Below, one piece after another: positions 212-37,820 of a DNA stretch of 38,277 nt. A program made the position numbers and the translations under genes. Below the pieces are notes generated by a model, which worked only from the letters and a program-made list of their open reading frames with translations, was not told where the DNA came from and did no database searches. How positions within the stretch are numbered: position 1 is the first letter of the stretch; each line of letters opens with the position of its first letter. The stretch is from Bacillota bacterium (GTDB taxonomy: Bacteria; Bacillota; Clostridia; Peptostreptococcales; Anaerovoracaceae), in NCBI GenBank assembly GCA_017433375.1, contig JAFRHG010000020.1, forward strand, positions 1 through 38,277, in the 5' to 3' direction.

Positions 212-1471
212 CTACACCTCCTCCGGGCCGGCGATCCTGCCCGCTATCGCTGAGGCGGCCGCAACCGCCGGACTGGCCAGATAGACCTCGGACTTCACGT
301 GCCCCATCCGTCCCACAAAGTTCCGGTTGGTCGTCGCCACGCAACGCTCCCCTGCCGCCAGAATGCCCATGTAGCCGCCCAGGCACGGCCCGCAGGTGGG
401 CGTGGACACGACGCAGCCGGCGTCGATGAAGGTCGTGATGTATCCCTCCTCGATGCACTGGCGGTAGACCTGCTGGGTCGCCGGAATGATGATGGTCCGC
501 ACATCCGGATGCACCTTGCGTCCCGCCAGGATCTCCGCGGCCGCCGCCATATCCTCCAGCCGTCCGTTGGTGCAGGAGCCGATGACCACCTGCTGGATGG
601 GCACATCCCCCGCCTCGTCCACGGTCTTCGTGTTCTCGGGCAGATGGGGAAAGGCAACCGTCGGCTTCAGGGCGGACAGGTCGATTTCATATTCCTCCGC
701 ATACTCGGCGTCGGGGTCGGGGGCAAAGGCAACCCAGTCTCCTTCGACCCGGCCGCGCATATATTCCTCGGTGACCTCGTCCACGGGGAAGATGCCGTTC
801 TTGCCGCCGGCCTCGATGGCCATGTTGGCGATGCACAGGCGGTCATCCATGGAAAGGCTCGCGATCCCGGGGCCGGTGAATTCCATGGAGCGGTAGAGGG
901 CGCCGTCCACGCCGATCATGCCGATGATGTGCAGGATCACGTCCTTGCCGCTCACGTACTTCGGCAGGGACCCGGTCAGGTGGAAGCGGATGGCCTCCGG
1001 CACCTTGAACCAGGCCTGGCCCGTCGCCATGCCCACCGCCATATCCGTGCTGCCTACGCCGGTGGAGAAGGCCCCCAGTGCGCCGTAGGTGCAGGTATGG
1101 GAGTCGGCGCCGATGATGCAGTCGCCGGCCTTGACGATGCCCTGCTCAGGCAGGAGGGCGTGCTCGATGCCCATCTGCCCCACGTCGTAAAAGTGTTCCA
1201 CATCGAAGCGGCGGGCGAAGGTGCGGCACTGCACGCACTGCTCCGCCGACTTGATGTCCTTGTTGGGGACGAAGTGATCCATGACCAGGGAGATCTTTTC
1301 CCGGTCAAAGATGCGGTCGAATCCCGCCTTCTCAAATTCCCGCACGGCAACGGGGGTCGTGATGTCATTGCCCAGAACCATGTCCAGGTTCGCCCGGATC
1401 AGCTGGCCGGCGGCCACTCGATCCAGCCCTGCGTGGGCGGCCAGTATTTTCTGCGTCATGGTCATTCCCAT
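212..1471 (-). CDS. leuC: 3-isopropylmalate dehydratase large subunit
   Basis: Large, iron-sulfur subunit of isopropylmalate isomerase (aconitase family, cytoplasmic). The 419-residue product has the short LeuC length of the bacterial/archaeal type rather than the roughly 465-residue enterobacterial type. Cluster cysteines are visible in [11 protein letters not shown] and in [10 protein letters not shown]; the [15 protein letters not shown] segment near residue 110 is also a family hallmark. The start at 1471 has AGGAGG nine bases upstream; a longer frame begins further up at 1510 but has no ribosome site. It lies 16 nt after leuA and 3 nt before leuD, so leuA-leuC-leuD form one operon under the leucine T-box. 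Confidence 0.95.
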
Positions 1472-1487
1472 AGTGTCTTTCCTCCTG

Positions 1488-3212
1488 TTATTTAAGAAAA
1501 TGGTCTTCACGGTTCATCCGGTTCAGGGCGCTGACCAGGGCGTTGACCGAGGCCAGAATGATGTCCTCATGGGTCCCCGTCCCCCAGAAGGGGTTGCCTT
1601 CCTCATCCTCGATGCAGACGTAGGCCGCGGCCCGTGAGTGGGAATCCCTGGACAGGGCGTGTTCCGAATAGGTGACGAATTCGTAGCTAAAGGTGTAGGG
1701 CGATTTCTTCAGGGCGTTGCTGATGGCGTCCAGGCGTCCGTTGCCCGTTGCGTCCAGCATATATATTTCGTCCTTGATCCGCACCCGGATCCGGACCATC
1801 ATGCCCTCCCCGGCGCGGTAGTCCGACTCCCCGTCCGCCTGGCCGCCGTCCATCCGCTGGAAGGTGGCGTTGGTGATGTCGATGGGATCGAAGACATCCA
1901 CGTACTCCTCGGTGAAGATCTGAAGGACCTCCTCGGGAGCCAGCTCCTTGTGGGCCCGGTCGGAAATGCCCTTGACCATGTAGCCCACCTCCTCCCGCAT
2001 GGCGGGGGGGATCAGGTAACCGAAGTTGTGCTCCAGGATATAGGCGACGCCGCCCTTTCCCGACTGGCTGTTGATCCGGATGACATCCGCTTCGTACTCC
2101 CGGCCCACATCGCCGGGATCCAGGGGCAGGTAGGGAACGGTCCAGCGGCCCGGGTCGTTATCGATCCGGTACTTCATGCCCTTGGCGATGGCATCCTGAT
2201 GGGACCCGGAGAAGGCTGCGAAGACCAGCTGCCCGCCGTAGGGCTGGCGGGGATGGACCTTCAGATCCGTAAACCGCTCGTAGGTCTCCACCACCTCCGG
2301 CATGTTGGTGAAGTCCAGCTTCGGGTCGATGCCGTGGGTGTACATGTTCATGGCCACGGTCACGATATCCACGTTGCCGGTCCTCTCCCCGTTGCCGAAG
2401 AGGGTCCCCTCCACCCGGTCGCCGCCGGCCAGAAGGCCAAGCTCCGCGTCGGCCACAGCCGTGCCCCGGTCATTGTGGGGATGAAGGGAGATGATCAGGT
2501 TCTCCCGGTTATGGAGATGCTCACACATGTATTCGATCTGGGAGGCGTAGACGTGGGGCATGGACATGGCCACCGTAGCCGGCAGGTTGATGATCACCTT
2601 GTTCTCCGGCGTGGGCTGCCAGATGTCGATCACCGCGTTGCACACCTCCGCCGCGTAATCCATCTCCGTCCCCGTGAAGCTCTCCGGCGAATACTCGAAC
2701 TGAAACTCCGTCCCCTCGTGAACGGCGGCGTACTTCAGGATCATCTTCGCCCCGTCGGTGGCGATTTTGCAGATGGCCTCCTTGTCCCGGTGGAAGACCT
2801 GCTCCCGCTGGGCCGACGAGGTGGAGTTGTACAGATGGACGATGGCGCGCTTGGCCCCCTTCAGGGCCTCAAAGGTCTTCTTGATGATGTGGCGCCTGGA
2901 CTGGGTCAGCACCTGGACCGTCACATCGTCGGGGATCAGATCCTCCTCGATCAGTTTCCGCAGGAATCGGTACTCCGTCTCCGACGCCGCGGGGAAACCA
3001 ACCTCGATCTCCTTGAAGCCCAGTTTGACCAGATACTGAAAGAATTCCACCTTCTCCTCCAGGCTCATGGGCACGATCAGGGCCTGATTCCCGTCCCGCA
3101 GATCGACGCTGCACCAGATCGGCGCTTTCTCGATATGATCCTTTGCCGACCACTTCATGTAGCCGCTGCCCACCGGATAATAGCCCGGACTGTACTTGGT
3201 ATAATTCTCCAT
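1488..3212 (-). CDS. leuA: 2-isopropylmalate synthase, long form
   Basis: Condenses acetyl-CoA with 2-oxoisovalerate, the committed step to leucine. The 574-residue product is of the long LeuA class (N-terminus with [12 protein letters not shown]). The TIM-barrel catalytic part shows [11 protein letters not shown] near residue 35 and the metal-binding [10 protein letters not shown]. The C-terminal 130 residues, with [17 protein letters not shown], are the LeuA dimer domain that normally mediates feedback inhibition by leucine. The start at 3212 (MENYTKY) has AAGGA upstream; the frame extends further up from a TTG, but that extension overlaps the T-box terminator and is not credible. First gene of leuACD and target of the leucine T-box. 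Confidence 0.95.
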
Positions 3213-3254
3213 TGCCTTTTCCTTGCTCCTCTTCTCCCCTTCTGCGTCGCCGGA

Positions 3255-3500
3255 TAAAAAAGGCCTCCATCCCAATCAAGAGACGAAGGCTTTGCCTGCG
3301 CGGTACCACTCTTGTTAGCGCGCTGTTTCGGCCGGGTCTGCCCCGCCGCTTCACCAGAAGGATCACGCGCTCCCTTAAAAGTTTCTGCTCCCGGGTGAGA
3401 CATACGGCTTCCCATCCAGCTTTTCACCAACCAGCTGTTCTCTGTCCTGTTCCGTCCGTATTTATTCCGTTCAACGCATCTTTATGCTGTTTGTTTGACG
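3255..3500 (-). promoter_or_regulatory. T-box leader (leucine) of leuACD
   Basis: The leader between the promoter and leuA holds the conserved T-box sequence AACAAGAGTGGTACCGCG (minus strand, 3316 to 3299). Its bulge UGGU would pair with an ACCA tRNA end, that is discriminator A, as in tRNA-Leu. A Stem I-like region (3360-3480) contains GGTTGGTGAAAAGC, and a candidate specifier CTC followed by A lies at 3399-3397, reading a leucine codon. GCGCG before and CGCGC after the T-box can form the antiterminator helix. Uncharged tRNA-Leu(GAG) should therefore allow read-through into leuACD. The specifier assignment is by eye. Confidence 0.9.
3256..3290 (-). terminator. T-box intrinsic terminator before leuA
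   Basis: An 11-bp stem (minus strand GCCUUCGUCUC paired with GGGAUGGAGGC, loop UUGAUU) is followed after one C by six U. It sits between the T-box sequence and the leuA ribosome site and is the regulated terminator of the leader. Confidence 0.9.
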
Positions 3501-3506
3501 TGTTCC

Positions 3507-3535
3507 ATGATAACCGATGGGATTATCCTTGTCAA
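3507..3535 (-). promoter_or_regulatory. Promoter of leuACD
   Basis: TTGACA (minus strand, 3535-3530), a 17-bp spacer and TATCAT (3512-3507). This places transcription start near 3500 and gives the T-box leader of about 290 nt. Confidence 0.75.
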
Positions 3536-3611
3536 CCATTATTTTCGTTTTTTTCAAACAAATTTTTTGTCATTTTATTGTGGATTATTAACAATTTTTC
3601 AAAATTTCCTG

Positions 3612-3639: not shown

Positions 3640-3698
3640 AGTAGCCGTAGCGAAATTTGCGCGGGTTTCCGCGCGCATTGACGGGAGGTTTATCAAGC

Positions 3699-5360
3699 AT
3701 GAGAGTTACTGGATCCCAGCTGGTTGCGGAGGTTCTGCTGGAGCACGGAGTGGACACCATCTTCGGCTATCCCGGCGGCACCATTCTCAACCTGTACGAC
3801 GCTCTGTACGAATACAGAGACCGGATCAGACACGTTCTGTCTGCCCATGAGCAGGGAGCGGCCCACGCCGCCGACGGCTATGCCCGGGCGACGGGCAAGA
3901 CCGGCGTGGTCTTCGCCACCAGCGGACCGGGGGCTACCAACCTGGTCACCGGCATCGCCACCGCCTACATGGACAGCATTCCTATGGTGGCCATCACCTG
4001 CAACGTCCCCGACCCCCTCATCGGGCGGGACGCGTTCCAGGAGGTCAGCATCACGGGTATTACGATTCCCATTACCAAGCACACTTATTTCATCAACCGG
4101 ATCGAGGACCTGGCCGACGCCATCCGCAACGCTTTCCGCATTGCCGCCAGCGGCCGCAAGGGTCCCGTTCTGATCGACATCACCAAGGACGTTACCGCGG
4201 CGACGATCAACTACAAACCGGGCAAGCCCCTGCCCGCCGATCCCCGGCCTGAGTTCACCGAGGAGGATGTCCGCAGGGTCGCCTCCATGATCAACGCCTC
4301 CGAGCGTCCGGTCATCTACTGCGGCGGCGGCGTTCCGGCCTCCGGCGCGGGAGAGGAGCTCCTGGAGCTGATGGACAAGGCCGACATTCCGGCCGCCCAC
4401 ACCCTGATGGCTGCCGGCCTCATCGGTTATGACAACCCGCGCAACCTGGGCATGCTGGGTATGCACGGTTCCATCGCCGCCAACAAGGCTGTCGACCGGT
4501 CCGATCTGATCATCGCCATCGGCGCCCGCTTCTCCGACCGGGTTGCCCTCAACCCCCAGAAGTTCGGCCGCCGGGCCCAGAAGGTGCAGATCGATATCGA
4601 CACCAGCGAGATCAACAAGAACGTCATCGTGGATTTCGGCGTCACTGCCGATGCCAGGGACTTCCTGGAGGCGCTGTTGCCTTTGGTCAAGGAAAAGACC
4701 CACAAGGAGTGGATCGAGAAGGCGGCGGGCTGGAAGAACACCACCGGCGACGTGAAGGAAGGCGACGCCACCCTGCACCCCAGCGAGATCGTGCAGGCGG
4801 TGTGCGACCTGACCGACAAAGAGACCACCTACGTCACCGACGTGGGCCAGCACCAGATGTGGACGGCCCAGTATCTGAAGTACGGCAAAGGCAACAAATT
4901 CCTGACCAGCGGCGGTCTGGGAACCATGGGCTTCGGCTACGGCGCGGCCATCGGCGCCCAGATCGGCGAGCCGGAACGGAGAGTCATCCACTTTACCGGC
5001 GACGGATCCTTCCATATGAATCTGAACGAAGCCTGCACCGCCGTCAGCCAGAATCTGCCCATCATCACCGTCATCATGAACAACCGTGTTCTCGGCATGG
5101 TGTACCAGTGGCAGACGGCCTTCTACGGCGGGCGCTACAGCGCGACCACCCCGGAGCGCAAGACCAACTTCCCCAAGCTGATCGAAGCCTTCGGCGGCAA
5201 GGGATTCTCGGCGAAGACGCCCCAGGAATTCGAGGAGGCCTTCAAAAAGGCCCTGAAGGAAAAGGGTCCCGTCTGGATCGACTGCGCCCTCTCCCCTGAC
5301 GAGCGGGTGCTTCCCATGATCCCCGGCGGCGGCACGCTGGAAGACATGATCATCGGTTAG
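3699..5360 (+). CDS. ilvB: Acetolactate synthase large (catalytic) subunit
   Basis: Thiamine-diphosphate enzyme joining two pyruvates (or pyruvate with 2-oxobutyrate), the first common step to valine, leucine and isoleucine. The product has 553 residues, the usual length. The ThDP catalytic glutamate is in SAHEQGAAHAADGYARA near residue 48, and the metal/ThDP motif runs from GDGSFHMNLNEA to MNNRVLGMVYQWQ near residues 430-470. The start at 3699 (MRVTGSQ) has GGGAGG upstream; the longer TTG frame is rejected. ilvN follows 14 nt later. One oddity is a Leu-Pro-Leu written TTG-CCT-TTG at 4677, against CTG/CCC elsewhere in the gene, which creates the AAAGGCAA octamer. Confidence 0.95.
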   Translation: MRVTGSQLVAEVLLEHGVDTIFGYPGGTILNLYDALYEYRDRIRHVLSAHEQGAAHAADGYARATGKTGVVFATSGPGATNLVTGIATAYMDSIPMVAITCNVPDPLIGRDAFQEVSITGITIPITKHTYFINRIEDLADAIRNAFRIAASGRKGPVLIDITKDVTAATINYKPGKPLPADPRPEFTEEDVRRVASMINASERPVIYCGGGVPASGAGEELLELMDKADIPAAHTLMAAGLIGYDNPRNLGMLGMHGSIAANKAVDRSDLIIAIGARFSDRVALNPQKFGRRAQKVQIDIDTSEINKNVIVDFGVTADARDFLEALLPLVKEKTHKEWIEKAAGWKNTTGDVKEGDATLHPSEIVQAVCDLTDKETTYVTDVGQHQMWTAQYLKYGKGNKFLTSGGLGTMGFGYGAAIGAQIGEPERRVIHFTGDGSFHMNLNEACTAVSQNLPIITVIMNNRVLGMVYQWQTAFYGGRYSATTPERKTNFPKLIEAFGGKGFSAKTPQEFEEAFKKALKEKGPVWIDCALSPDERVLPMIPGGGTLEDMIIG

Positions 5361-5374
5361 AAAGGAGTGACGGA

Positions 5375-5976: not shown

Positions 5977-6984
<1,008 letters not shown>

Positions 6985-6998
6985 CCGAGGTACTGACA

Positions 6999-8657
6999 AT
7001 GAGAAGTGACAGCGTAACCAAAGGCGTTGAACGGGCACCCAACCGCAGCCTGTTCTACGCGATGGGCTATACGAAGGAAGAACTGGAACGTCCCCTGGTG
7101 GGCGTTGTGTCCGCCAAGAGCGAGATCGTTCCCGGCCACATGCACCTGGACAAGGTCGCCGAAGCCGTCAAGGCCGGCATCCGCATGGCCGGCGGAACCC
7201 CTGTGGAGGTCCCCGCCATCGGCGTCTGCGACGGCATCGCCATGGGCCACATCGGCATGAAATACTCCCTGGCCAGCCGCGAGCTGATCGCGGACAGCGT
7301 GGAGACCATGACCATGGCCCACGCCTTTGACGGCCTGGTGCTGATCCCCAACTGCGACAAGATCGTCCCCGGCATGATCATGGCCGCGGTCCGGATGAAC
7401 ATTCCGGCCGCCGTCTGCTCCGGCGGGCCCATGATGTCCGGTCTGGTGGGCGGCGAGGAAACCAGCCTGTCCAAGATGTTCGAGGCGGTAGGCGCCTACA
7501 AGGCGGGCATCATCGACGATGACAAACTGCAGGAATTCGAGGAGAACGTCTGCCCCGGCTGCGGCTCCTGTTCCGGCATGTATACGGCCAACAGCATGAA
7601 TTGCCTTTCCGAGGCGGTGGGCATCGCCCTGCCCGGCAACGGCACCATTCCCGCCGTGCACAGCGGACGGATCCTTCTGGCCAAGCACACGGGCATGGCC
7701 ATCATGAACCTGATCGAAAAGGACATCAAGGCGAGGGACATCATCAACGAGAAGTCCCTGAAGAACGCCCTGGCCTGCGACATGGCCCTGGGCTGCTCTT
7801 CCAACAGCGTCCTCCATCTGCTGGCCATCGCCAACGAGGCGGGCGTGGATCTGGATCTGAAGATTTTCAACGAGTTCAGTGCCCGGGTGCCCAACCTGTG
7901 CCATCTGGCACCGGCCGGCCCCACCCACATGCACGATCTGAACAACGCCGGCGGACTTCCCGCCGTGCTCAGTGAGCTGAACAAGAAGGGCCTGATCGAT
8001 ACCTCCCTGATCACCGCCACCGGCAGGACCGTCGGCGAGAACATCGCCGGCGCGAAGGTCAGGGACTACAGCATCATCCGTCCCATCGACGATCCCTACA
8101 GTGAGACCGGCGGCATCGCCATCATGTGGGGCAACATCGCCACCGACGGCTGCGTGGTCAAGCGGAGCGCCGTCGCGCCGGAAATGCTGAAGCACTCCGG
8201 CCCGGCCAGAGTCTTCGACAGCGAGGATGAGGCCATCAAGGCCATCTACGACGGAAAGATCGTGGACGGCGATGTGGTGGTCATCCGCTACGAGGGCCCC
8301 AAGGGCGGTCCGGGCATGCGGGAGATGCTCAATCCGACCAGCGCACTGGCCGGCATGAAGCTGGATAAGACCGTCGCCCTGATCACCGACGGACGTTTCA
8401 GCGGCGCGAGCCGCGGCGCCTCCATCGGGCACGTCTGTCCCGAGGCTGCCTCCGGCGGAAACATCGGCCTGCTGAAGGAAGGAGATATCATCGACATCGA
8501 TATCCCCGGCGCCTCCATCAACGCCCGCGTTTCCGATGAGGAGTTCGATGCCCGCCGCAAGGATTATGTGGCTCCCCCGCCCAATGTCACCTCCGGGTGG
8601 CTGGCGCGCTACATGCGCAATGTGGATGCATCCTCCAGGGGCGCGGTCATGAAGTAG
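6999..8657 (+). CDS. ilvD: Dihydroxy-acid dehydratase
   Basis: Iron-sulfur enzyme forming 2-oxoisovalerate and 2-oxo-3-methylvalerate, the last common step of branched-chain synthesis before transamination and the source of the LeuA substrate. The 552-residue product is normal length. Cluster cysteines are in [10 protein letters not shown] (near 115) and [18 protein letters not shown] (near 185-200). The C-terminal [10 protein letters not shown] is the other family signature. It starts 14 nt after ilvC with a weak CCGAGG site. Last gene of the rightward operon. Confidence 0.96.
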
Positions 8658-9385: not shown

Positions 9386-10759
9386 CTAGAGCATGAAGCC
9401 CACGATCAGGTACGCGATGACGGAGGCCCCGCCGGCGATGCAGGCGTAGGGCAGCGTGGTCATCATCAGGTTCAGGGTCTTGACCTGGGTTCCCTGGGCG
9501 CACATGATAACGCCGTCACCATAGAGGCAGGTGTTGCTTCCGAAGGCGGCGCCGGAGAATACGGCGGCCGAAACCAGGATCGGATCCACGCCCATGGCGT
9601 TGGCCAGAGGAATAACGATGGGGATGATGATGGCCGCCAGATCCCAGAAGCATCCGGTGGCATAGGCGTAGATGCCGCAGACGATGAATACCGCTGCCGG
9701 CAGGAATCCGCCCTTCATGATGGGCTCGGTGACGGAGATGACGTAGTCCGCCAGTCCCAGTTCCAGGTTGGCTCCCTGTACGGAGAAGGCCAGCACGGAC
9801 AGGATGAACACGAAGCCCATGGACATGACACCGTCAAAGCAGGCCGTCAGCAGTTCGGTGAAGGACATTTTGCGTTCCACCAGGTAGAGGCCGAAGGCCA
9901 CGATCACCGCGGCGGCCGATCCCTTCATGACGTCGGTGTCCGTCAGCAGGGTGACCACGATCATGACGATCAGCGGGATCAGGAAGTTCCAGGGCTGGGG
10001 CTTGACGCCTTCCGGCATGTCGTCCGTCTTGGCGTTCCTCACGATCTCCTCGTCGGTTCCCTCGGGGAAGACATCTCCCGTCAGCTCGTAACGCTCATAG
10101 GCCTTCTTCATGGAACCGATCTTGGGAATGATGCCGAAGATCTGCAGCAGGCAGACGATGATGGCGAACCAGGCATAAAAGGCAAAGGGCAGTCCGTGGA
10201 CGTAGGCCGCCATGGAGGATCCGCCGATCTCCACGCCCTGCTCTTCCATCAGCTGGGCGAAGTAGACCGCCCAGGAAGACAGGGGGATCAGCAGGCAGAC
10301 CGGAGCCGCCACCGTGTTGACCACGTAGGCCAGCTGCAGCCGGGGGATGCCCAGCTTGTCGGTGATGCCCTTCATGGTGGTGCCCACCGCCAGGTTGTTC
10401 AGATAGTCATCCAGGAAGATGATCACGCCCAGGATGAAGGTGCCCAGCAGGGCCGACTTCTTCGTCTTGATCAGCTTTCTTGCCCAGAATCCGAAGTCGA
10501 TGACCGCTCCCGACCGCTCATACATCATGATCAGCATGCCGAAGAGGGCGATGACGATCAGCAGCCACTGGAGGGATTCATTGGTAAATCCTCCGTAGAT
10601 GCAGTCGAAGAATTTGCCCGCGAACCCGGTCAGTCCGCCGGCGAGTATCAGCGCCGCCATGGACAGGCCGCAGGTCATCGCGAACAGCGTCTTTTTCGTC
10701 GTCACGGCGATGACCAGGATGGTCAGTACGGGCAAAACACAAATAAAACCATAATCCAT
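9386..10759 (-). CDS. nhaC: NhaC-family Na+/H+ antiporter
   Basis: Integral membrane protein of 457 residues with about 11-12 hydrophobic segments. The family signature FLDDYLNNLAVGTTMKGITD lies near residues 115-135, and a second conserved polar segment GSNTCLYGDGVIMCAQGT lies near 405-425. NhaC proteins exchange Na+ for H+; some relatives exchange organic anions or amines, so the substrate is not settled by sequence. AGGAGG precedes the ATG. It follows the amidohydrolase gene by 82 nt and is the last gene of the long leftward run. In context it may balance ions for the oxidoreductase operon, or export a product of the amidohydrolase. A run of nine G lies just beyond its stop. Confidence 0.85.
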   Translation of the reverse strand: MDYGFICVLPVLTILVIAVTTKKTLFAMTCGLSMAALILAGGLTGFAGKFFDCIYGGFTNESLQWLLIVIALFGMLIMMYERSGAVIDFGFWARKLIKTKKSALLGTFILGVIIFLDDYLNNLAVGTTMKGITDKLGIPRLQLAYVVNTVAAPVCLLIPLSSWAVYFAQLMEEQGVEIGGSSMAAYVHGLPFAFYAWFAIIVCLLQIFGIIPKIGSMKKAYERYELTGDVFPEGTDEEIVRNAKTDDMPEGVKPQPWNFLIPLIVMIVVTLLTDTDVMKGSAAAVIVAFGLYLVERKMSFTELLTACFDGVMSMGFVFILSVLAFSVQGANLELGLADYVISVTEPIMKGGFLPAAVFIVCGIYAYATGCFWDLAAIIIPIVIPLANAMGVDPILVSAAVFSGAAFGSNTCLYGDGVIMCAQGTQVKTLNLMMTTLPYACIAGGASVIAYLIVGFML

Positions 10760-25576: not shown

Positions 25577-25691
25577 GGCCCCTCTGACTCTCCCGCAGAA
25601 ATAACGTCCGCTCTCTATTTTGCCACAATTATTCCTGCCGTCAAGGGTTTCCTTGCAATTGAGCCATTTTTGTTGATGAAAAGGCAATTCT

Positions 25692-25734
25692 TATCCGAGG
25701 AGGCCCTCCGCTCCTATCCGAGGAGGCCCTCCGC
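25692..25734. repeat. Tandem duplication at the radC 3' end
   Basis: TATCCGAGGAGGCCCTCCGC occurs at 25692-25711 and 25715-25734. The right copy encodes the last residues and stop of RadC; the left copy lies just after the stop. It looks like a recent small duplication. Confidence 0.85.
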
Positions 25735-26394
25735 CTCCATGCTGATGAAGGCGCCGTCCCCGATGACGATATGATCCAGCACGGGAATGCCCAGGATCTC
25801 CCCCGCCTCTTTGAGCCGGCGGGTCGTCCGGATGTCCTGGTCGCTGGGCGTCGGATCCCCCGAGGGGTGATTATGCAGAAAGATCACCGAAGCGGCGCTG
25901 CGGCGGATGGCCGGCGCGAAGACCTCCCGCGGGCCCGCCGCCGAGGAGCACAGGTCGCCCACGGAAACCTCCGTCTCCCCGATGATGTCCCCGACGGCAT
26001 TGATCAGCAGGCAGACGAAGTGCTCCTTATTATAGTAGCGCAGCTTCTCCATGAAGAGCTGCGCCACATCGGAGGAGCCCTGGATCCTTCCCCTCATTTC
26101 CGTCCGGCTGGAGGCGATCCGCCTCCCCAGCTCCACGGCGGCCAGCAGGCCGCAGACCTTGGCGTCCCCCATCCCGCTGATCCGCTTCAGTTCCTCCGGC
26201 GTGCAGTCCGCCAGAAACCGCACCCCAGCCTTGTCCATGGCGAGGATCTCCCCGGCCAGATCCATGGCCGTCTTCTTCGCCGTCCCCGTCCGGAGCAGGA
26301 TCGCCAGGATCTCCGCGGTGGACAGCTTCTCCCTGCCCTCCCGCAGCAGCTTCTCCCTGGGTTTCTCCCATGCCGGCAGTTCGTTCATCATCAT
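25714..26394 (-). CDS. radC: RadC/YsxA-like JAB-domain protein
   Basis: 226 residues with an N-terminal helix-hairpin-helix region (about 20-90) and a C-terminal MPN/JAB domain containing FLHNHPSGDPTPSDQD (near 170), the putative zinc-binding set. Called RadC by convention; the proposed repair function is not established and the protein is often linked to natural transformation or mobile DNA. A promoter lies at 26444-26472. The gene ends in a short tandem duplication. Confidence 0.93.
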   Translation of the reverse strand: MMMNELPAWEKPREKLLREGREKLSTAEILAILLRTGTAKKTAMDLAGEILAMDKAGVRFLADCTPEELKRISGMGDAKVCGLLAAVELGRRIASSRTEMRGRIQGSSDVAQLFMEKLRYYNKEHFVCLLINAVGDIIGETEVSVGDLCSSAAGPREVFAPAIRRSAASVIFLHNHPSGDPTPSDQDIRTTRRLKEAGEILGIPVLDHIVIGDGAFISMEAEGLLG

Positions 26395-28397: not shown

Positions 28398-29891
28398 TCA
28401 GTTCCTCACGTGGAAGGTCAGGTTCTCCTGATATTCGCCGGAATCCAGTCTCCGGAAGAAGTCCTTGGTTTCCATGGCGATGACGCCGGAAAGGACGACC
28501 AGAGCGATCAGGTTCGGCGCAGCCATCAGCGCGTTGAAGATGTCCGCGATGGTCCATACCTGGCTCAGGGTCAGGAAGGGGCCGATCAGGACGGCGAAGA
28601 TGTAGACCCAGCGATAGAACTGGATGGCCGCCTTGTTGCCGTTGGTCAGATAGTCGAAGCAGCGCTCCGCGTAGTAGTCCCATCCGAGGATGGTGGTGAA
28701 AGCGAAGAATGCCAGCGCCGTCATGACCACGAAGGCGCCTGCGGACTGGGACCAGGGCAGGCCCATGCCGAAGGCCATCTGGGTGAGGGCCGCGCCGTCT
28801 ACGACAGCGTCGCCGCCTTCCAGGATGCCGCCGGCGATATTCATCTGGTTCGCCGTCTCGTATGCGCCGGAGACCATGATGGTCAGGCCGGTCATGGTGC
28901 AGATGCAGATGGTGTCGATGAAGGTACCGGTCATGGTAACCAGACCCTGACGGACACATTCATTGGTCTGCGCAGCAGCAGCAGCGATAGGCGCGGAACC
29001 CAGGCCGGCTTCGTTGGAGAAGATGCCTCTGGCCACGCCCTTCTGCAGGGCGATGAACATGGTTCCGACAACGCCTCCGGTGACCGCCGAGGGCGAGAAT
29101 GCCGCCTTGACGATCGTGGCGACCGCCCAGGGGATGTCCGCGATGTGATAGAAAACGATGCAAAGGCAAACGATCACGTAGGCGATAGCCATGAAGGGTA
29201 CCACGACCGTGGTAACCGACGCGATTCTCTTGATGCCGCCGATGATGACCAGCGCGGACAGGACCGCGACGACGATAGCCGTCAGCACGACCGCGATGGA
29301 ATACTCTCCGCCGAAGAGGTGGACCAGATGCTGATCATTGGGGTCGAAGAAGGACTTCGCCGCGTTGGCGATACCGTTGACCTGGGTGATGGTTCCGATA
29401 CCCAGGGCTCCGGCCAGAGCGCCGAACAGGGCGAACAGTTTGCCCAGCCATCTCCAGTTATGGCCGGTCTTTTCCTTCATGCCCTTTTCAATGTAGTAGA
29501 AGGGGCCGCCCAGATAGGAGCCGTCTTCCTTTTTGATTCTGTACTTAATGGCCAGCAGGCCTTCCGCGTACTTGGTCGCCATACCGAAGCAGGCAGCGAT
29601 GATCATCCAGAACAGCGCTCCCGGGCCGCCGGCGACAACTGCGGTCGCCACACCGACGATGTTTCCGGTACCGATGGTAGCGGACAGCGCCGTGGCCAGC
29701 GCACCGAAGCTGGTGACCTCGCCGGATCCGCCTTCCTCGTTATGCACCATGTACTTCAGCGCCTTGCCGAGTTTTCTGAACTGCACCACTTTCAGTCTGC
29801 AGGTCAGCAGGATCCCGGTACCCATGATGAGAACGATCAGAGGAATTCCCCATACGATCCCGTCGACTGTGTCAAGAAATTGTGTGACCAT
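28398..29891 (-). CDS. AGCS-family sodium:glycine/alanine symporter
   Basis: Sodium-coupled amino-acid carrier of 497 residues with about 10-11 TM segments. Family motifs: FGALATALSATIGTGNIVGVA near residue 62, GGPGALFWMI near 88, and ARGIFSNEAGLGSAPIAAAA near 293. AGCS carriers move alanine and/or glycine; the glycine riboswitch in the leader makes glycine the likely physiological substrate. AAGGAGAG precedes the ATG. It is transcribed alone, from the promoter at 30179-30207 to the terminator at 28311-28346. Confidence 0.94.
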   Translation of the reverse strand: MVTQFLDTVDGIVWGIPLIVLIMGTGILLTCRLKVVQFRKLGKALKYMVHNEEGGSGEVTSFGALATALSATIGTGNIVGVATAVVAGGPGALFWMIIAACFGMATKYAEGLLAIKYRIKKEDGSYLGGPFYYIEKGMKEKTGHNWRWLGKLFALFGALAGALGIGTITQVNGIANAAKSFFDPNDQHLVHLFGGEYSIAVVLTAIVVAVLSALVIIGGIKRIASVTTVVVPFMAIAYVIVCLCIVFYHIADIPWAVATIVKAAFSPSAVTGGVVGTMFIALQKGVARGIFSNEAGLGSAPIAAAAAQTNECVRQGLVTMTGTFIDTICICTMTGLTIMVSGAYETANQMNIAGGILEGGDAVVDGAALTQMAFGMGLPWSQSAGAFVVMTALAFFAFTTILGWDYYAERCFDYLTNGNKAAIQFYRWVYIFAVLIGPFLTLSQVWTIADIFNALMAAPNLIALVVLSGVIAMETKDFFRRLDSGEYQENLTFHVRN

Positions 29892-30260: not shown

Positions 30261-31334
30261 CTATTTTTTTACTTTCGCGTTGTCGAGGATGAAATCCATG
30301 ACCTTTTCATAGAGCAGGTTGATGTGGGCGTACTGGTCCATGGTCCGGCCGGTGTAGCTCTTGACCGAGTCCTCATCATACCCCTGGGCAGTGATCTCCT
30401 CGATCTTCTTTTCCTTTTCCTCGTCGGTGTATTCCAGGCCTTCCTTATCGGCGATGTACTCGATGGCCATCTCCTGCTTGATCAGGGTCTGGGCGCTCTC
30501 CTCGATCATCTTGTCGAAGGCCTTCTCATCCTCCGCGCCGAAGTACTGGGCAATGACCTCGCTGCGGTCCACTCCGTACTGCTCCGCCATGGAGTCCACC
30601 TGGGCGCTGAAGTTCTCCTTGTAGGCCTTGAGCTGATCCTCGGGATACTTGAGCATTTCCGTGTTCTCCATCACCTTGGACCAGAGCTCGTTCTTCTGCT
30701 CCTCCTTCGCCTCGTCTTCCTTCTCCTTGCGGATGGACTTCTTCAGGGACTTCTCGTAGTCTTCCTTGGTCTTGTACTTGGTATTCTTCTTGATGAAGGC
30801 ATCGGTGTATTTCGGCGTCTTCGTCCGCTTCGCGGAATTGATCTTCACCTTGAAGGTGACGTCCTTGCCGGCGACATCCTCGCTCTGGTAATCCTTCGGG
30901 AAGGTCAGGTCCAAAGTGACGCTGTCCCCGATATGCTTGCCTTTTAATCCGTCCTCAAAGCCCTCGATGAAGCTGTCGCTGCCGATCTCCAGATCCGTTC
31001 CTTCCGCGGAGCCTCCCTCGAATTCCTTGCCGTCTATGGTCCCCACGTAGTCGATGTTGACGGTGTCGCCGTCCTTGATCTCGTCATCTTTGCCCAGATC
31101 CTCGGACTTGGCCGCCGCCTCCAGGGCCTCATCGATCTTGGCCTGCACGTCCTCGTCGGTGACCTTGACCTTGACCGTCTCCACCGGCAGGCCCTTGTAC
31201 TGTCCGACCTTGATGTAGTCGTCGTAGTTTATTCCGTCATAGGGATTCTTCTCGTCTCCGCATCCGGACAGTCCCATGCAAAGGCAAAGAACGACCGCCA
31301 TGCTCAGTCCCAGAATAACCGATCTCTTACTCAT
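30261..31334 (-). CDS. Trigger-factor-like FKBP peptidyl-prolyl isomerase lipoprotein
   Basis: 357 residues. A signal peptide with lipobox LSGC (Cys25) predicts anchoring on the outer face of the membrane. An FKBP domain follows (about 85-175, with DGDTVNIDYVGTIDGKEFEGG and FIEGFEDGLKGKHIGD), then a long helical trigger-factor-C-type domain (about 176-350) rich in Lys and Glu. It lacks the N-terminal ribosome-binding domain of true trigger factor, so it is likely a foldase for exported proteins, comparable in role to PrsA. That role is inferred. AAGGAGA precedes the ATG; it lies about 100 nt after the diguanylate cyclase gene. Confidence 0.88.
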   Translation of the reverse strand: MSKRSVILGLSMAVVLCLCMGLSGCGDEKNPYDGINYDDYIKVGQYKGLPVETVKVKVTDEDVQAKIDEALEAAAKSEDLGKDDEIKDGDTVNIDYVGTIDGKEFEGGSAEGTDLEIGSDSFIEGFEDGLKGKHIGDSVTLDLTFPKDYQSEDVAGKDVTFKVKINSAKRTKTPKYTDAFIKKNTKYKTKEDYEKSLKKSIRKEKEDEAKEEQKNELWSKVMENTEMLKYPEDQLKAYKENFSAQVDSMAEQYGVDRSEVIAQYFGAEDEKAFDKMIEESAQTLIKQEMAIEYIADKEGLEYTDEEKEKKIEEITAQGYDEDSVKSYTGRTMDQYAHINLLYEKVMDFILDNAKVKK

Positions 31335-31436: not shown

Positions 31437-34274
31437 TTACTTGACCGGATTGCTTTCCAGCCGCTCCGCCTGGTGGGTGACGGTGACCCCGGCTTCGCCT
31501 TCCGCCTCCCAGACGTCCAGGATCCGGCTGACGGGAATCATATAGCCCTCTTCACTGGCTTCCACCAGCAGGGCCAGCACCTGCCTGGTGTTGTACTTCA
31601 GCACCACGTCGCAGCTGCGCAGAAGCCCCGCGGCCAGCTCGACGAATCTGTCCGTGGCCTCGGAGAGTTTCCCCTCTTCTTCCCCCTGGAGGGTAAAGGC
31701 AACCAGGTACAGGTCGCAGGAGCTGTTGGAGGCAAAGCGCACCATGAATCGGTAGACATCCCGGAAGATGTCCTTGTCGGCGATCAGGGCGGTCCGCTTC
31801 TGATTCCGCTCGCCGAAGACCATCTGCAGGCTGGACAGCTCGCCGGTGCTCTCCTCCCGGGTTGCCTTTGCCTGTTCCCTGTGGATGGTGATGTGGTGCT
31901 TCCCCTCCTTCTTCGCCTGATGGAGCGCCTGGTCCGCCTTGGAGAAGAGCACGCTGTACTCCCGTCCGCCCTGGGGCACCATCACGGCACCCACGGAGCA
32001 GCCGATGGGGATCTGCGTCTCGCTGCCCATATACTCCCTGGCGGATTTGATGATCTCCCCGTTGAGGAAGGACGCCTTCCCTGCCAGCACCTCCTCATCC
32101 GTCAGCCCGTCGCAGTAGACGACGAATTCGTCCCCGCCGATCCGCCCGGCGATATCGTTGTCCCGGATGACCGACCGGATCAGGTCGGCGAACCGGATGA
32201 GGACCCGGTCGCCCATCTCGTGGCTGTACAGGTCGTTGACCAGCTTGAAGCTGTCCAGGTCGATGACCAGCAGGGTGCCCTTGCCGCTCTCCACGGCGCG
32301 GGCGATAGCGTCCTCCGTGGAGGCTTTGTTGGACAGGCCGGTCATGGCGTCCGTGCGGGCGGCCTTCTCCAGCCGCCGGTTCACCTCATCCTGCCAGGCG
32401 ATCATACCCGACAGCATCCGATAGATCATCACGATGCAGATGAGGAAAGCCGCCAGGCAGATAATGCTGTAGATGATGACCCGGCCGTAGATCTTCCAGG
32501 CGTCGGCGACCACGTAGATGGCGAAGCGGGAGGTGTTGTTGCTCTTGGCGAGAAGGATATTCCAGGATCCGTCGTAGTCCCGGATAAGCTTTGTATCGGT
32601 GCCGTTGGCTTTCACCCCGCCGTAGGGCAGGTCCAGCACACTGGTCTGGGTTTCCTGGGACATCTGGTACGCTCCGTAGGGATGGTTCACGATATTGCCG
32701 TCCACATCCACCAGGAAGGCGTAGCCGTCATCGGAATAGCTGTCACCCAGGATCCCCACCAGCTTGTCCATATAAAAGTCGATGCCGAACACGCCCAGGA
32801 ACTTCCCGGTCTTCGCATCGTTGACGCATTCGGCGATGGTCACGCAGTAGCCGCCGGTCTGCTCGTCATAGTAGGGCGCGGTAATGGTCCATCCGGCCTC
32901 GGCGTTGAGGGCGCCCTCGTACCAGGGCCGCTCCTCGATGCGCACCTCCGGTCCCGGCATCCATCCGTTGTTCATGAACACCGTCGGCTCCATATCCGGA
33001 TTGGCCAGATAGGTAACGGAGATCTCCGGATACTGTTCGGTGATGCGGTCCAGGAAGCCGATCGTTCCCTTATAGTCCTTCAACATATCCGGATTGGTGG
33101 AGATGGTGCTGACGAACATATCCAGAATGCTCTTCTGGGTGTCCACCCATTCCGACAGGTGGTACTCGTAGCTGTCCGCCTCGCTCTTCATCTGGACGGT
33201 TCCCCAGCGGGTGGTCGCGGAAATGGTAGTGTACATGCTGAAGAGCATGACCAGGATCATGAAGACGAGGATCCGGTTCCGGTATGTCTTGTTGACGCCC
33301 CGAGCTTCCTTTTTCTTTTTGCCGGCAGGCCGTTCTCTGTGTTCCTCCTCGCTCTCCCGGGCCGTCTCCCCCCGCTTCCTGTTTCGCCGCGCGAATACAA
33401 AGGCAAGGATAACGGTGACGAACAGAGCGAGAGCGATCAGAATGGTCACGATGAGCTGGGCGTAAGCGCTCCGGTAGAGATCCCAGTCGCTGATGCTGAC
33501 GATCAGGTACCAGCCGTTACCGGATTGGGTGGCGAAGAGGTTTTCGTTCAGCAGCCCTGACTTGATCCGGGCGGTGACCAGACCCTCCTTTTTCTTTGAC
33601 AGGGCCCAGATCCCCGCGTATTCGGGGACGGCGTCCTTGAGCTGCCTGCCGATCATCTGCTCGTCGGAGCATCCGGCGATGATGCCGTCGCCGGTGACGA
33701 TGACCGCGTGCCGGTCCCCTTCGTCATACATCTGTTCGATGTATGACTGGATGGTGTCCATGGTGTAGTCCACCGCCAGCACCGTTTCCCCGTCGGCCAG
33801 CATAACGGACACGGAATAGCAGATGTCTCCCGTCATGGCATCCTGGTAGGGCGAGGATACGTATACCTTCCCCCCGTTGCGGATTGCGCCCTTGTACCAG
33901 ACCCGGTCCGAAGGCACATAGTCGCCGGGCGCGTCAAAATCGGGGATGATGAACCAGTCGCTTCCGGCGATGTAGACATTGAACACACCGGTGTCCCCTT
34001 CGACGGCTTCTTTCTTTTTCCTATTGATGAATTTGTCCAGCGCCTCACGGTCGTCGAGATACTTTCCCGACTCGATGGCGATCTCCATCGTGAGTTTCTC
34101 GGCGTCATCGATGGTCTTCTCCAGTTCCCGGCTGATGCTCTCCAGCTGGGTGATGCCCGCGTCCTTCGTCTGCTGCCTGATCTGCCCGGACATCACCCAG
34201 ATGTCAATGAGCAGCACCGCCAGCAGAAGGACGGCGACCGCGATGACGACGCCGACATTCTTTCTGTTGTTCAT
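31437..34274 (-). CDS. Diguanylate cyclase with two tandem dCACHE sensor units
   Basis: 945 residues. Order: TM (about 8-28), dCACHE-1 (35-265), TM (272-296), basic linker, TM (335-353), dCACHE-2 (358-595), TM (600-622), GGDEF domain (640-800), C-terminal domain (820-930). GRIGGDEFVVY holds an intact active site, with an inhibitory RxxD site (RDND) five residues before GGDEF. Both sensors show the amino-acid-binding pattern: DRVWYKGA, PYQD and a later D in unit 1; ERPWYEGA, PYYD and FGID in unit 2. The last 110 residues resemble a decayed second GGDEF (LLRSCDVVLKYNTRQVLALL). ATG 34274 is chosen over the TTG one codon earlier. It follows the lipoprotein gene by 4 nt. Confidence 0.88.
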   Translation of the reverse strand: MNNRKNVGVVIAVAVLLLAVLLIDIWVMSGQIRQQTKDAGITQLESISRELEKTIDDAEKLTMEIAIESGKYLDDREALDKFINRKKKEAVEGDTGVFNVYIAGSDWFIIPDFDAPGDYVPSDRVWYKGAIRNGGKVYVSSPYQDAMTGDICYSVSVMLADGETVLAVDYTMDTIQSYIEQMYDEGDRHAVIVTGDGIIAGCSDEQMIGRQLKDAVPEYAGIWALSKKKEGLVTARIKSGLLNENLFATQSGNGWYLIVSISDWDLYRSAYAQLIVTILIALALFVTVILAFVFARRNRKRGETARESEEEHRERPAGKKKKEARGVNKTYRNRILVFMILVMLFSMYTTISATTRWGTVQMKSEADSYEYHLSEWVDTQKSILDMFVSTISTNPDMLKDYKGTIGFLDRITEQYPEISVTYLANPDMEPTVFMNNGWMPGPEVRIEERPWYEGALNAEAGWTITAPYYDEQTGGYCVTIAECVNDAKTGKFLGVFGIDFYMDKLVGILGDSYSDDGYAFLVDVDGNIVNHPYGAYQMSQETQTSVLDLPYGGVKANGTDTKLIRDYDGSWNILLAKSNNTSRFAIYVVADAWKIYGRVIIYSIICLAAFLICIVMIYRMLSGMIAWQDEVNRRLEKAARTDAMTGLSNKASTEDAIARAVESGKGTLLVIDLDSFKLVNDLYSHEMGDRVLIRFADLIRSVIRDNDIAGRIGGDEFVVYCDGLTDEEVLAGKASFLNGEIIKSAREYMGSETQIPIGCSVGAVMVPQGGREYSVLFSKADQALHQAKKEGKHHITIHREQAKATREESTGELSSLQMVFGERNQKRTALIADKDIFRDVYRFMVRFASNSSCDLYLVAFTLQGEEEGKLSEATDRFVELAAGLLRSCDVVLKYNTRQVLALLVEASEEGYMIPVSRILDVWEAEGEAGVTVTHQAERLESNPVK

Positions 34275-34278
34275 CAAA

Positions 34279-34875: not shown

Positions 34876-34893
34876 CCTAATCTCTTCTTTCCC

Positions 34894-35736
34894 TTACTTT
34901 TTCCCGCGAAACAGTTTGATAAAAAAGTCCGGCACACTGCTCCAGGTGTGGTCCCGGCGCGCCAGGTTGTTGGTGCTGACGCCGTGCACCGTATTGATGG
35001 GCGGGAGGCTGCTTTCCCCCTGCTGCTCCCTCTCCCGGTTCATTTCCTCATGAAGGTCGCTGCTGCGCACGGGATTGCCTTTGCCCGGTTCTTCTTCCTC
35101 CCCGGATCGGCCCATGCCGCCCAGGGCCATGGCGACGGGCATGCCGATGAAGACAACGACCGCCGCGCCGAAGATGATGCACCCCGCGACGCCCAGGCTG
35201 CGGAACATCCGCAGGAAGACGTTGCCGCTGACCTTCGGTTCATGGTACTGGAAGGTCCGTACAAAGGCAATCATATCCTCCTTCTGCTTCGCTGAGCAGG
35301 AGGAATAGTAGCCCTTCCTGGTGGTGTCCTGACACTGGTAGCCGACCTCATAGCACTTTTCGTCGTGCATGACGTAGCAGGTCATGGAGTTGTCGCGGCT
35401 GTGGTCCCAGTCATAGGCGTGGAGGTTGGCCGTCGTATCCTCATCGATCTCGGTCACTTCCCCGCCCGTGTTGGAATAGTCTTCAAAGCCCGTGAATTCG
35501 ACCTGGAGGGTCTCCCGGGCGGAGTCCGTCTCCCGAACCAGATACAGCCCGTTCAGGCCGCTCCTGTCTTCGTCCACCGTATATCCTTCCGGCGGCGTGA
35601 TGGTCGCGTTCTCCTCCAGGGTCCCCGGATCCTCAAAGAGATGGGCCCTGTCCACCACCGTGTAGGCGAGGAACAGGAATCCGATGAGGATGACGACACT
35701 CATCAGCCTGTTTACTGCGGTCTTGCGTTTAGTCAT
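34894..35736 (-). CDS. Two-TM protein of unknown function
   Basis: 280 residues. TM1 (about 10-28), an external domain (about 30-175) with cysteines in SMTCYVMHDEKCYEVGYQCQ and YYSSCSAKQKE, TM2 (about 182-207), then a charged cytoplasmic tail. The external part looks like a small beta-rich fold, but I recognise no family. ATG 35736 has AAAAGG four bases upstream; an ATG 30 nt earlier has no ribosome site. First gene of a leftward run with the lipoprotein and cyclase genes. Confidence 0.75.
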   Translation of the reverse strand: MTKRKTAVNRLMSVVILIGFLFLAYTVVDRAHLFEDPGTLEENATITPPEGYTVDEDRSGLNGLYLVRETDSARETLQVEFTGFEDYSNTGGEVTEIDEDTTANLHAYDWDHSRDNSMTCYVMHDEKCYEVGYQCQDTTRKGYYSSCSAKQKEDMIAFVRTFQYHEPKVSGNVFLRMFRSLGVAGCIIFGAAVVVFIGMPVAMALGGMGRSGEEEEPGKGNPVRSSDLHEEMNREREQQGESSLPPINTVHGVSTNNLARRDHTWSSVPDFFIKLFRGKK

Positions 35737-35806
35737 GTCCTTTTCCCCGCTCTCCTTGTCATACATAGTTATTTTAACATATATCTCATTTGTTTAGTAG
35801 AACACT

Positions 35807-35821
35807 TCACCGGCCGGGTGA
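35807..35821. promoter_or_regulatory. Palindrome upstream of the membrane-protein/cyclase cluster
   Basis: TCACC-GGCCG-GGTGA, 5-bp arms, about 70 bp ahead of the gene at 35736. Possible operator; no strong promoter match was found next to it. Confidence 0.3.
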
Positions 35822-35840
35822 TATACACCTTTGTACGAAT

Positions 35841-35886
35841 AAAAAACCGCTGCGGTGACCTGTCAGGCCGTTGTCCGCAACGGTTT
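35841..35886 (-). terminator. Terminator after the 232-residue protein gene
   Basis: AAACCGTTGCGG/CCGCAGCGGTTT (12 bp with one G-U pair) followed by U-rich sequence on the minus strand; 34 nt after the stop of the gene at 35920. Confidence 0.85.
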
Positions 35887-35919
35887 ATGTCTATTCTGTC
35901 ATTTTGTGTCCGCCGGTCG

Positions 35920-36618: not shown

Positions 36619-36633
36619 AGCTGTCCTCCTTTA

Positions 36634-36886
36634 TCATTTATCTTTCTTGATGTCCCTGTACAGGAAGAAGGCGAAGACTACGCTGACCACGTATCCGGCG
36701 CATCCGACGATGGGAAGCGATCTGGCCGATCTTGACGAAGGTCGGCCCCAGATCCTCCAGAATGCTGACGATGATCTCCGGCGTAATGCCGTCATCATAA
36801 TCCTATTTCCTCACAATACCAAGGATCTCCTTGAGCCGTCCGCTGGTATCCGGCTCGGCGTTCTTCGCGTCCTTACGCTGTTTCAT
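36634..36886 (-). pseudogene. Decayed aarF/ubiB (ABC1-type kinase-like) gene
   Basis: From ATG 36886 the frame reads GRLKEILGIVRK, then an in-frame TAG, then DGITPEIIVSILEDLGPTFV and KIGQIAS, the signature N-terminus of AarF/UbiB proteins. The reading then shifts into another frame that encodes PIVGCAGYVVSVVFAFFLY followed by RDIKKDK and a stop, which looks like the C-terminal membrane segment of the same family. The whole catalytic middle (some 400 residues or more) is missing. A premature stop, a large internal deletion and a frame change mark it as dead. Confidence 0.75.
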
Positions 36887-36941
36887 CAGTGCAGAGGTGA
36901 CATACCTGTGTAACCTCCATTTCTCTCATTGATCAATCGTC

Positions 36942-37820
36942 TTACTCATCATCCGGTTCGTCATCCGGTTCAGCTTCTTCAGCCTCTTCATCCTCTTCGG
37001 TCTCCTCGACCTCATCGGGCTCTTCGTCTCCGTCGTCCGGTCTGATCATAAGGTTTTCCACCACCTTATTGGACTTGGACGTCTTCAGGGCAATGAAGCC
37101 GAAGGTCGAGAACACGACGGCGCCGATCAGGTTCACCAGCAGATCCTTCATGGTATCCAGAATGCCGATGTCCAGGTATCCACCCTTTATGACCGTGGTC
37201 TCCCCCGATGCCGTGTGAATGACCGTTTCGGTAATGTCGTTCACATGGATCAGGTCACCGGAATTGTCCGGATCCAGGGTCACGGAGTTGACCGTCTGTA
37301 CGATGAAGTCCTTCTGCATATCCTTGTTGAGGAAAAGGTCCATGGCGCATTCAAAGAACTCCCAGATGACGCCGATGGTCATGGAAAAGCAAAAGGCAAC
37401 CATAGCCAAATACATGGGGGACAGCTTGAAATCCTTACTGCCTCTGTTGAGCAGATAAATCGTGGAGAATCCCACCGCCGCGAACAGGAATCCGTTCAGC
37501 GTATGGAGAATGGTGTCCCATCCCGGTATTTTGGTATAGTAATGGTCCACCTCGCCCAGGATCTCCGCCGCAAAGATGAAGGCGAATATGATCGCCTGGA
37601 ACAGAGGCGGTATGGTCAGTTTCAGCCTGTCCTCGATAAGCGCCGGCAGCAGGAACAAAAGCAACACCAGAAGGCACGTGGCGAAGCTTTCATAATTATG
37701 CGTAACCAGACAGCGGATCGCGGTCAGAATCACCATAATATGCAGTATCGTAAACAGAATAAACGTCTTCTTATTCCGCTTGTACCTGTCGATCAGGCTC
37801 CTCAAATATTTGGATATCAT
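36942..37820 (-). CDS. Multi-TM protein with an acidic C-terminal tail
   Basis: 292 residues. About six to seven hydrophobic segments (near 20-40, 46-62, 72-90, 105-125, 138-160 and 222-245). Features include LHTLNGFLFAAVGFS near residue 105 and IGVIWEFFECAMDLF near 148, reminiscent of the YjdF/DUF2238 membrane-protein group; assignment is tentative. A soluble insert (about 168-215) lies before the last TM. The final 30 residues are almost all Glu and Asp. GGGAGGG precedes the ATG. It lies ahead of the decayed aarF gene and may once have shared its operon. Confidence 0.75.
   Translation of the reverse strand: MISKYLRSLIDRYKRNKKTFILFTILHIMVILTAIRCLVTHNYESFATCLLVLLLFLLPALIEDRLKLTIPPLFQAIIFAFIFAAEILGEVDHYYTKIPGWDTILHTLNGFLFAAVGFSTIYLLNRGSKDFKLSPMYLAMVAFCFSMTIGVIWEFFECAMDLFLNKDMQKDFIVQTVNSVTLDPDNSGDLIHVNDITETVIHTASGETTVIKGGYLDIGILDTMKDLLVNLIGAVVFSTFGFIALKTSKSNKVVENLMIRPDDGDEEPDEVEETEEDEEAEEAEPDDEPDDE

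Follow-up and report, generated by a model that had tools for sequence, protein, structure and literature searches.

The octamer AAAGGCAA, which recurs throughout the 38,277-nt stretch of Bacillota DNA analyzed here (hereafter the window), is a real, dialect-forming genome word that characterizes the majority of the species of a Clostridia genus and that behaves like an uptake sequence. Judged by analogy with known systems, it is fairly probable that the octamer forms the central part of a tag that marks self DNA in the manner of uptake sequences, and that biased uptake of DNA is the cause of its abundance. A little less confidently, we think that it would represent a third independently evolved uptake-sequence system and the first in a Gram-positive lineage, present in one Clostridia genus with at least three dialects that act as gene-exchange barriers, about one-third of the species being without the tag because they never gained it or lost it.

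The window contains 23 copies of AAAGGCAA, compared to a mean of 0.77 and a maximum of 4 in 100 dinucleotide shuffles. Of all octamers in the window it has the highest order-2 Markov score (z 22); it is also part of the highest-scoring 9-mer and 10-mer. The sequence-only reading in which the octamer was first noted had listed the copies with every coordinate and strand exact. Two of its minor statements need correction: nine copies, not eight, extend to GCAAAGGCAA, and AAAGGC without a subsequent AA, at 12 of 35 cases, is not very rare. Based on open reading frames (ORFs) called by our own script, 21 copies lie within ORFs, in all frames and in both senses, and two lie between genes (20609 and 26461). 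For the copies at 3212 and 25680 we place the true start of the surrounding ORF, by our own reading, such that the copy probably coincides with the start codon or precedes it. The unusual codons pointed out in the IlvB-like, amidohydrolase and FKBP/trigger-factor-like genes (in the latter, L-K-G-K) were also confirmed. All copies are listed in Table 1.

The window is part of a draft genome, G000, of 1,953,975 bp in 38 contigs that is 89% complete. The whole draft contains 1132 copies of AAAGGCAA (568 forward and 564 reverse), or one per ~1.7 kb, against 134 copies (73 forward and 61 reverse) of the reversed word used as control. In a sample consisting of the window and 20 further stretches (393,708 bp) 226 copies were counted where an order-3 model predicts 10.8, the highest score of all octamers. 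Thus, the genome-wide signature that had been proposed is present, far above the control and beyond Markov expectation. The bases flanking the octamer in this sample are biased as well: immediately 5′ G is found in 63% and C in 67% of the cases, preceded by T in 38%, and C or T followed by G is found on the 3′ side. The real unit exceeds the octamer and is about TGCAAAGGCAAYG. A second word, AAAAGCAA, is raised too (57 versus 9.7). The spacing of the copies is near random, with a coefficient of variation (CV) of the gaps of 0.93 in the G000 sample and 0.92 in contig C34 of the congeneric genome G044. As a separate observation, the palindrome TGGCCA is over-represented in the same sample (482 versus 194, order-3 model).

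According to a home-made gene caller, 187 of the 226 copies are coding, 36 are intergenic (35.8 expected by length) and three are at gene edges. The coding copies are divided over 98 sense and 89 antisense ones, and all six frames are used. Synonymous-codon shuffling within genes resulted in a mean of 12.1 copies (maximum 20 in 100 shuffles) compared to 188 when counted gene by gene, so that codon usage does not account for the enrichment under this control. Individual peptides show the same effect: 28 of 46 Val-Ala-Phe tripeptides are spelled with the word (0.64 expected), as are 10 of 40 Leu-Pro-Leu tripeptides (0.01 expected). An ordinary origin, in the base composition, in the usage of codons or codon pairs, or in a dispersed repeat, is extremely improbable. 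Although the preferred frames do code for common peptides, the Markov, shuffle and synonymous-codon-shuffle controls all oppose such an origin, as does the fact that the sites have little sequence in common beyond a few flank bases.

Among congeneric species (100 genomes surveyed, including G000) the octamer is enriched in some, whereas others do not exceed background. De novo k-mer searches were carried out on stretches of 22 congeneric genomes and then on those of 13 others, the second round also covering four repeated sets and a cultured relative. They revealed a common core, GCAAAGGC, and a 3′ end that varies among species, which explains why AAAGGCAA itself is unevenly distributed. In the 22-genome search the highest-ranking words did not include the motif in G018, G022, G040, G048, G036, G030, G021, G023 and G008. 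In G047 the octamer was raised (8 versus 1.6) though a repeat element supplied the top words; these k-mers, such as TCTGGTAACC (15 versus 0.09; L058-L059 on contig C13), are unrelated to the motif. Candidate words in loci L079, L108, L142 and L150 were rejected because short repeats, arranged locally in tandem or in clusters, give the appearance of an octamer enrichment there. A different word, GCGATCGC, which we take to be a HIP1-type palindrome, is raised in L113 and L136, titled Erysipelotrichaceae and Solobacterium (8 versus 0.5 and 12 versus 1.4).

The core was then surveyed in 349 genomes of the family, 49 of the genus and 300 of other genera. Genomes were classed as rich when they contained at least 150 cores per Mb and at least 1.8 times the reversed control, a cut-off set after the counts were seen. 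Thirty-four of the 49 genus genomes are rich (191-545 per Mb) and 15 are poor (42-126 per Mb); among borderline cases, the rich class includes G033 (no copy in a 20 kb stretch) and G031 and G011 (about twice the control), and G036 was classed as poor. The core is near background in the other 300 genomes. The densest of these, selected by eye, are G375, with 343 copies in 1.7 Mb against 170 of the control, and G374, with 296 in 1.5 Mb against 136, and therefore the lowest rich genomes of the genus overlap other genera in density. The ratio of core to control may be high despite few copies, as in G331 (110 versus 7). In the cultured relative FE2018 the core is near background (235, control 291).

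At least three spellings were found de novo. Dialect 1 is GCAAAGGCAA (G000 and G034), dialect 2 is TGCAAAGGC(A), present in a group of 15 species that were pooled afterwards, and dialect 3 is TGCAAAGGCTGG, present in five species. Counts of the dialect-3 word GCAAAGGCTG are 864 in G044, 556 in G010, 355 in G009, 332 in G001 and 332 in G045, against 1-10 copies of the control word. In the remaining 44 genus genomes the count never exceeds 89, and G000 contains seven. On the complete contig C34 of G044 (375,180 bp) the 12-mer TGCAAAGGCTGG occurs 81 times versus 0.09 expected, a ~900-fold enrichment, and the coding regions contain 131 copies of the 10-mer versus 2.8 after codon shuffling (50 shuffles, maximum 7). 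One-mismatch tables show that the three groups have a tolerated change in common, GCAAAAGC, which exceeds expectation by factors of 48, 15 and 54, and that most other one-mismatch changes of the core are few in number. Judged from these species spellings, the word has dialects around a common core, as uptake sequences do. It is very improbable that the word is a DNA methyltransferase or other modification site whose abundance is driven by modification or restriction. Some modification systems typically recognize words that are not palindromes; restriction, however, usually depletes its sites instead of enriching them to the extent observed for the 12-mer in G044, and the spellings vary among relatives.

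Positions outside the core are conserved too. Counting from the first G of the core, T is found at position -4 in 46% of the sites both in the pooled dialect-2 GCAAAGGCA set (129 sites, 15 species) and in G044 (163 sites). T at -1 is found in 58% and 69%, and C at +16 in 45% and 56% of the sites of these two sets, respectively. The outer bases shared by two dialects, namely T at -4 and C at +16, suggest a protein footprint of about 22 bp.

Individual sites turn over. We compared 114 matches of G000 genes at 50% or more protein identity, considering those own coding sites that could be aligned. In G034, at 82% nucleotide identity, four of eight sites are exact where identity by itself would give 1.6, compared to two of 36 in dialect-2 orthologues (1.6 expected from overall identity), none of nine in dialect-3 species and none of 15 in motif-poor species. 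Hence, outside the close pair G000/G034 sites are not bound to positions. The dialects are visible in the proteins as well, the tripeptides spelled by each being in excess mainly in species using that dialect. The dialect-3 tripeptides PAF, QPL, SLC, QRL and KGW are present at 2.89, 2.09, 2.98, 2.54 and 3.21 times expectation in G044 versus 1.02, 0.60, 1.71, 1.28 and 0.86 times in G000. Conversely, VAF, IAF and LAF together reach 1.52 times in G000 and 0.94 times in G044.

The word is also rarer in foreign DNA. Terminase matches were obtained in 13 of the 49 genus genomes. In the phage-terminase DNA of eight motif-rich genomes (92,116 bp; one region was cut by eye and the others are whole contigs) 13 cores were found versus 35.9 at genome rates (P=1e-5), a ~2.8-fold reduction before correction for base composition. 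The flanks of the terminase region in G007 contain 14 cores versus 14.6.

A site bound by a chromosome-structuring or self-marking protein, such as a nucleoid protein, a silencer exemption or a phage-defence mark, would be consistent with the near-random, strand-neutral spread of the copies and with the extended footprint. We nevertheless regard this explanation as unlikely. It needs separate reasons for the turnover, the tripeptide excess and the dialects of close species, all of which biased import of DNA explains directly, and we know of no structuring or self-marking system with more than 1000 words per genome.

Strand polarity was analyzed by orientation with respect to local GC skew. The copies are divided over 123 leading and 103 lagging ones in G000 (p=0.21) and over 89 and 74, respectively, on G044 contig C34, which has a GC-skew switch (p=0.27). 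In the pooled dialect-2 stretches of 15 species there is a weak excess on the leading strand (104 versus 68, p=0.007). Polarity is thus not significant in two of the three spelling groups and copies are nearly strand-neutral, and the earlier argument that near-equal strand use opposes a polar site is upheld by these counts and by the draft as a whole, with a weak bias in dialect 2. These data bear on the possibility that the word is a Chi-like site, read by AddAB or a similar helicase-nuclease that protects self DNA or promotes its recombination. Chi sites are octamer-sized and over-represented in self DNA; the size and abundance of our octamer, its rarity in phage DNA and the lean of dialect 2 to the leading strand fit such a role. 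A Chi site, however, is read in one orientation, which does not agree with the counts in G000 and G044, and the spelling differences among congeneric species and the conserved outer flanking bases are unlike the Chi sites known to us. A Chi-like function is therefore disfavoured and, in our view, improbable.

The sequence-only reading had left the choice between an uptake sequence, a Chi-like site and a chromosome-organizing site. We favour the uptake-like tag over the other two because of the near strand neutrality, the species spellings, the extended footprint, the turnover and the rarity in phage DNA. In the mechanism that we propose, a surface or pilus-associated DNA receptor would bind ~11-22 bp around TGCAAARGC..., and fragments containing the word would enter the cell and be recombined into its chromosome at a higher rate than fragments without it. 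Such an uptake bias (molecular drive) would, over time, lead to accumulation of the favoured word throughout the genome, on either strand and in any gene or frame, and a shift in the preference of the receptor would cause a species to drift to a new spelling. We infer that the process behind the accumulation is DNA uptake, that the word is recognized by a receptor at the cell surface, pilin-like or otherwise, and that differences in dialect hinder transfer. If true, sequence-tagged uptake would not be tied to an outer membrane, natural transformation would be predicted in bacteria known mainly from metagenomes, and the over-use of certain tripeptides by these species would be explained. Moreover, a genus with several dialects and tag-free species should allow the receptor to be found by comparison.

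The link to competence is drawn from anatomy and analogy. In likeness to monoderm bacteria with a Com pilus, ComEC was detected in 40 of the 49 genus genomes and ComEA over the cut-off in 43; among genomes at least 85% complete, ComEC is present in 18 of 18 motif-rich and in nine of 11 poor ones. The comEC gene of G000 itself carries an inverted pair, TTGCCTTTGCAAAGGCAA, near its 3′ end (L023:5517-5534, contig C10). Again as in a Com pilus, a six-gene operon of G000 (C7:4150-7913, L021) encodes a T2SSF/ComGB-like (PilC-like) protein, DUF4860, small pilin-like proteins (weak matches) and a PilT-family ATPase. Retrieval by the ATPase yielded 80 loci with whole or partial homologues of this operon (L074-L153), and in the closest 21 loci DUF4860 and the small proteins that follow it diverge much faster than the ATPase. 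A type-B operon (~40% identity) is present in exactly four species, all of dialect 3. In addition, G000 contains a type IV pilus locus (C3:10.7-34.2 kb) with pilin, PilB, PilT, PilC, PilD, PilM, PilN/O-like and minor pilin genes, the names other than those of the ATPases being our reading of the sequence. Type IV pilins of this locus (C3:10748-34224; L009 and L010) are encoded at C3:10748-11179 and 33631-34224. After the PilN/O-like genes the locus is followed by an ORF exceeding 4,200 aa, which we read as adhesin-like. Strong PilB-type matches were obtained in only four of the 49 genus genomes. G000 and G034, the sampled genomes with clear dialect 1, have an adjacent PilB-PilT ATPase pair and no detectable ComEA, and the pilus has possibly replaced ComEA in these two genomes. 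A weak helix-hairpin-helix (HHH) match on contig C12 of G000 was rejected as ComEA since it overlaps an ORF read as RuvA. Tad neighbours of the CpaF-like ATPase of G000 were not recognised in L188, of which the first residues were considered.

Besides the strand bias of dialect 2, several results weigh against a tag for DNA uptake. With two HHH models ComEA was not found in G000 (89% complete) or G034 (90%), and no PF00437 match over the cut-off was obtained in the motif-rich genomes G005, G032 and G035. Among genomes at least 85% complete, rich and poor ones are not separated by ComEC, ComEA or the six-gene operon (Fisher p 0.14, 1.0 and 0.24, respectively). The motif-rich genome G029 (98% complete) is without the six-gene operon. 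Conversely, in 17 other genomes with a relative of the operon the core is near background, which weakens the case for the operon as reader of the word. FE2018 has a relative of the operon too. As regards the footprint, C at +16 persists and T at -4 falls below the threshold when all 209 dialect-2 GCAAAGGC sites are considered, and in dialect 1 T at -1 was seen but neither of the outer bases. Some tripeptides do not discriminate: LPL is present at 1.51 times expectation in the poor species, and the value for KGN/KGK in G044 (1.64 times) exceeds that in G000 (1.18 times). Finally, closely spaced inverted pairs, which are frequent in uptake-sequence systems and serve there as terminators, are not enriched, with three pairs within 60 bp among the 226 sites of the G000 sample (~4 expected by hand estimate).

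Table 1. Copies of the octamer in the window and the genes or gaps in which they lie
Copy	Position	Strand	Context	Peptide or codons
AAAGGCAA	650..657	+	antisense in aconitase-family gene 212-1510	V-A-F
full GCAAAGGCAA	725..732	+	antisense in aconitase-family gene 212-1510	V-A-F
AAAGGCAA	3212..3219	-	adjoins probable ATG start of ORF 1488-3275 (start is our reading)	
AAAGGCAA	4677..4684	-	IlvB-like TPP enzyme 3657-5360	Leu-Pro-Leu, TTG-CCT-TTG
full GCAAAGGCAA	4887..4894	+	IlvB-like TPP enzyme 3657-5360	K-G-N
AAAGGCAA	7601..7608	-	IlvD-family gene 6999-8657	N-C-L-S
AAAGGCAA	10178..10185	+	Na+/H+ antiporter-family gene 9386-10759	F-A-F
full GCAAAGGCAA	11646..11653	-	amidohydrolase 10842-12497	Q-R-Q, CAA-AGG-CAA
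AAAGGCAA	13309..13316	-	near start of sortase-like gene 12516-13325	K-G-N
AAAGGCAA	15494..15501	+	ORF 15146-15718	L-A-F
full GCAAAGGCAA	20609..20616	+	intergenic	
AAAGGCAA	24531..24538	-	RNase Y gene 23110-24651	T-K-A-K
AAAGGCAA	25680..25687	+	probably at/upstream of start of ORF 24848-25687 (start is our reading)	
full GCAAAGGCAA	26461..26468	-	intergenic, upstream of RadC-like gene 25714-26394	
full GCAAAGGCAA	29162..29169	+	ORF 28398-29891	V-C-L-C
AAAGGCAA	30937..30944	-	FKBP/trigger-factor-like gene 30261-31334	K-G-K after TTA Leu codon
full GCAAAGGCAA	31280..31287	+	FKBP/trigger-factor-like gene 30261-31334	L-C-L-C
AAAGGCAA	31695..31702	+	GGDEF gene 31437-34277	V-A-F
full GCAAAGGCAA	31862..31869	-	GGDEF gene 31437-34277	A-K-A-T
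AAAGGCAA	33399..33406	+	GGDEF gene 31437-34277	L-A-F
full GCAAAGGCAA	35075..35082	-	ORF 34894-35766	K-G-N
AAAGGCAA	35263..35270	+	ORF 34894-35766	I-A-F
AAAGGCAA	37392..37399	+	ORF 36942-37820	V-A-F

According to the available passages of PMC12616744, sequence-tagged uptake of self DNA is known from only two Gram-negative families, and Neisseriaceae and Pasteurellaceae are also the two groups named in those of PMC3630211 and PMC5031613. Among the literature matches listed, with preprints and most subscription papers outside their range, there was neither an uptake sequence in Firmicutes or Clostridia nor a paper on the word. Monoderm competence with a sequence tag was likewise not found in the literature, the retrieved passages naming Neisseriaceae and Pasteurellaceae, or Neisseria.

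In its copy number, its presence on both strands and in all frames, its enrichment beyond codon usage and its lower frequency in foreign DNA, the Clostridia word resembles the uptake sequences of these families. The DNA uptake sequence (DUS) of Neisseriaceae, ATGCCGTCTGAA, has dialects and is bound by the receptor ComP. Like this DUS, the Clostridia word is short and non-palindromic, is present in hundreds to thousands of copies in genes and gaps, and has a common core with species dialects (PMC3630211, PMC5031613); unlike it, its inverted pairs are not enriched. In the excerpts on the uptake signal sequence (USS) of Pasteurellaceae, AAGTGCGGT or ACAAGCGGT, 1,465 cores are given for H. influenzae and two subclade spellings are shown to bias uptake (PMC1626085, PMC7811141). 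The Clostridia word shares with the USS, as described there, the thousand-scale copy number, the strong consensus and positions beyond the core that matter; it differs in that these positions are single bases that flank the core on either side (T at -4, C at +16). According to the same excerpts, USS and DUS favour non-coding DNA (PMC1626085, PMC7811141), whereas intergenic copies in G000 are as expected by length. The sequence of the Clostridia word is unrelated to DUS and USS, its host belongs to the Clostridia and thus to a different phylum, and it is not a member of DUS or USS proper. Chi, in the passages available, is recognized in a single orientation and in Caulobacter is divided unequally between leading and lagging strands (PMC5443536); the Clostridia word differs by the lack of a clear strand polarity, by its dialects within one genus and by its extended footprint. 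On the receptor side, ComN has been proposed as the minor-pilin receptor of Pasteurellaceae and the counterpart of ComP.

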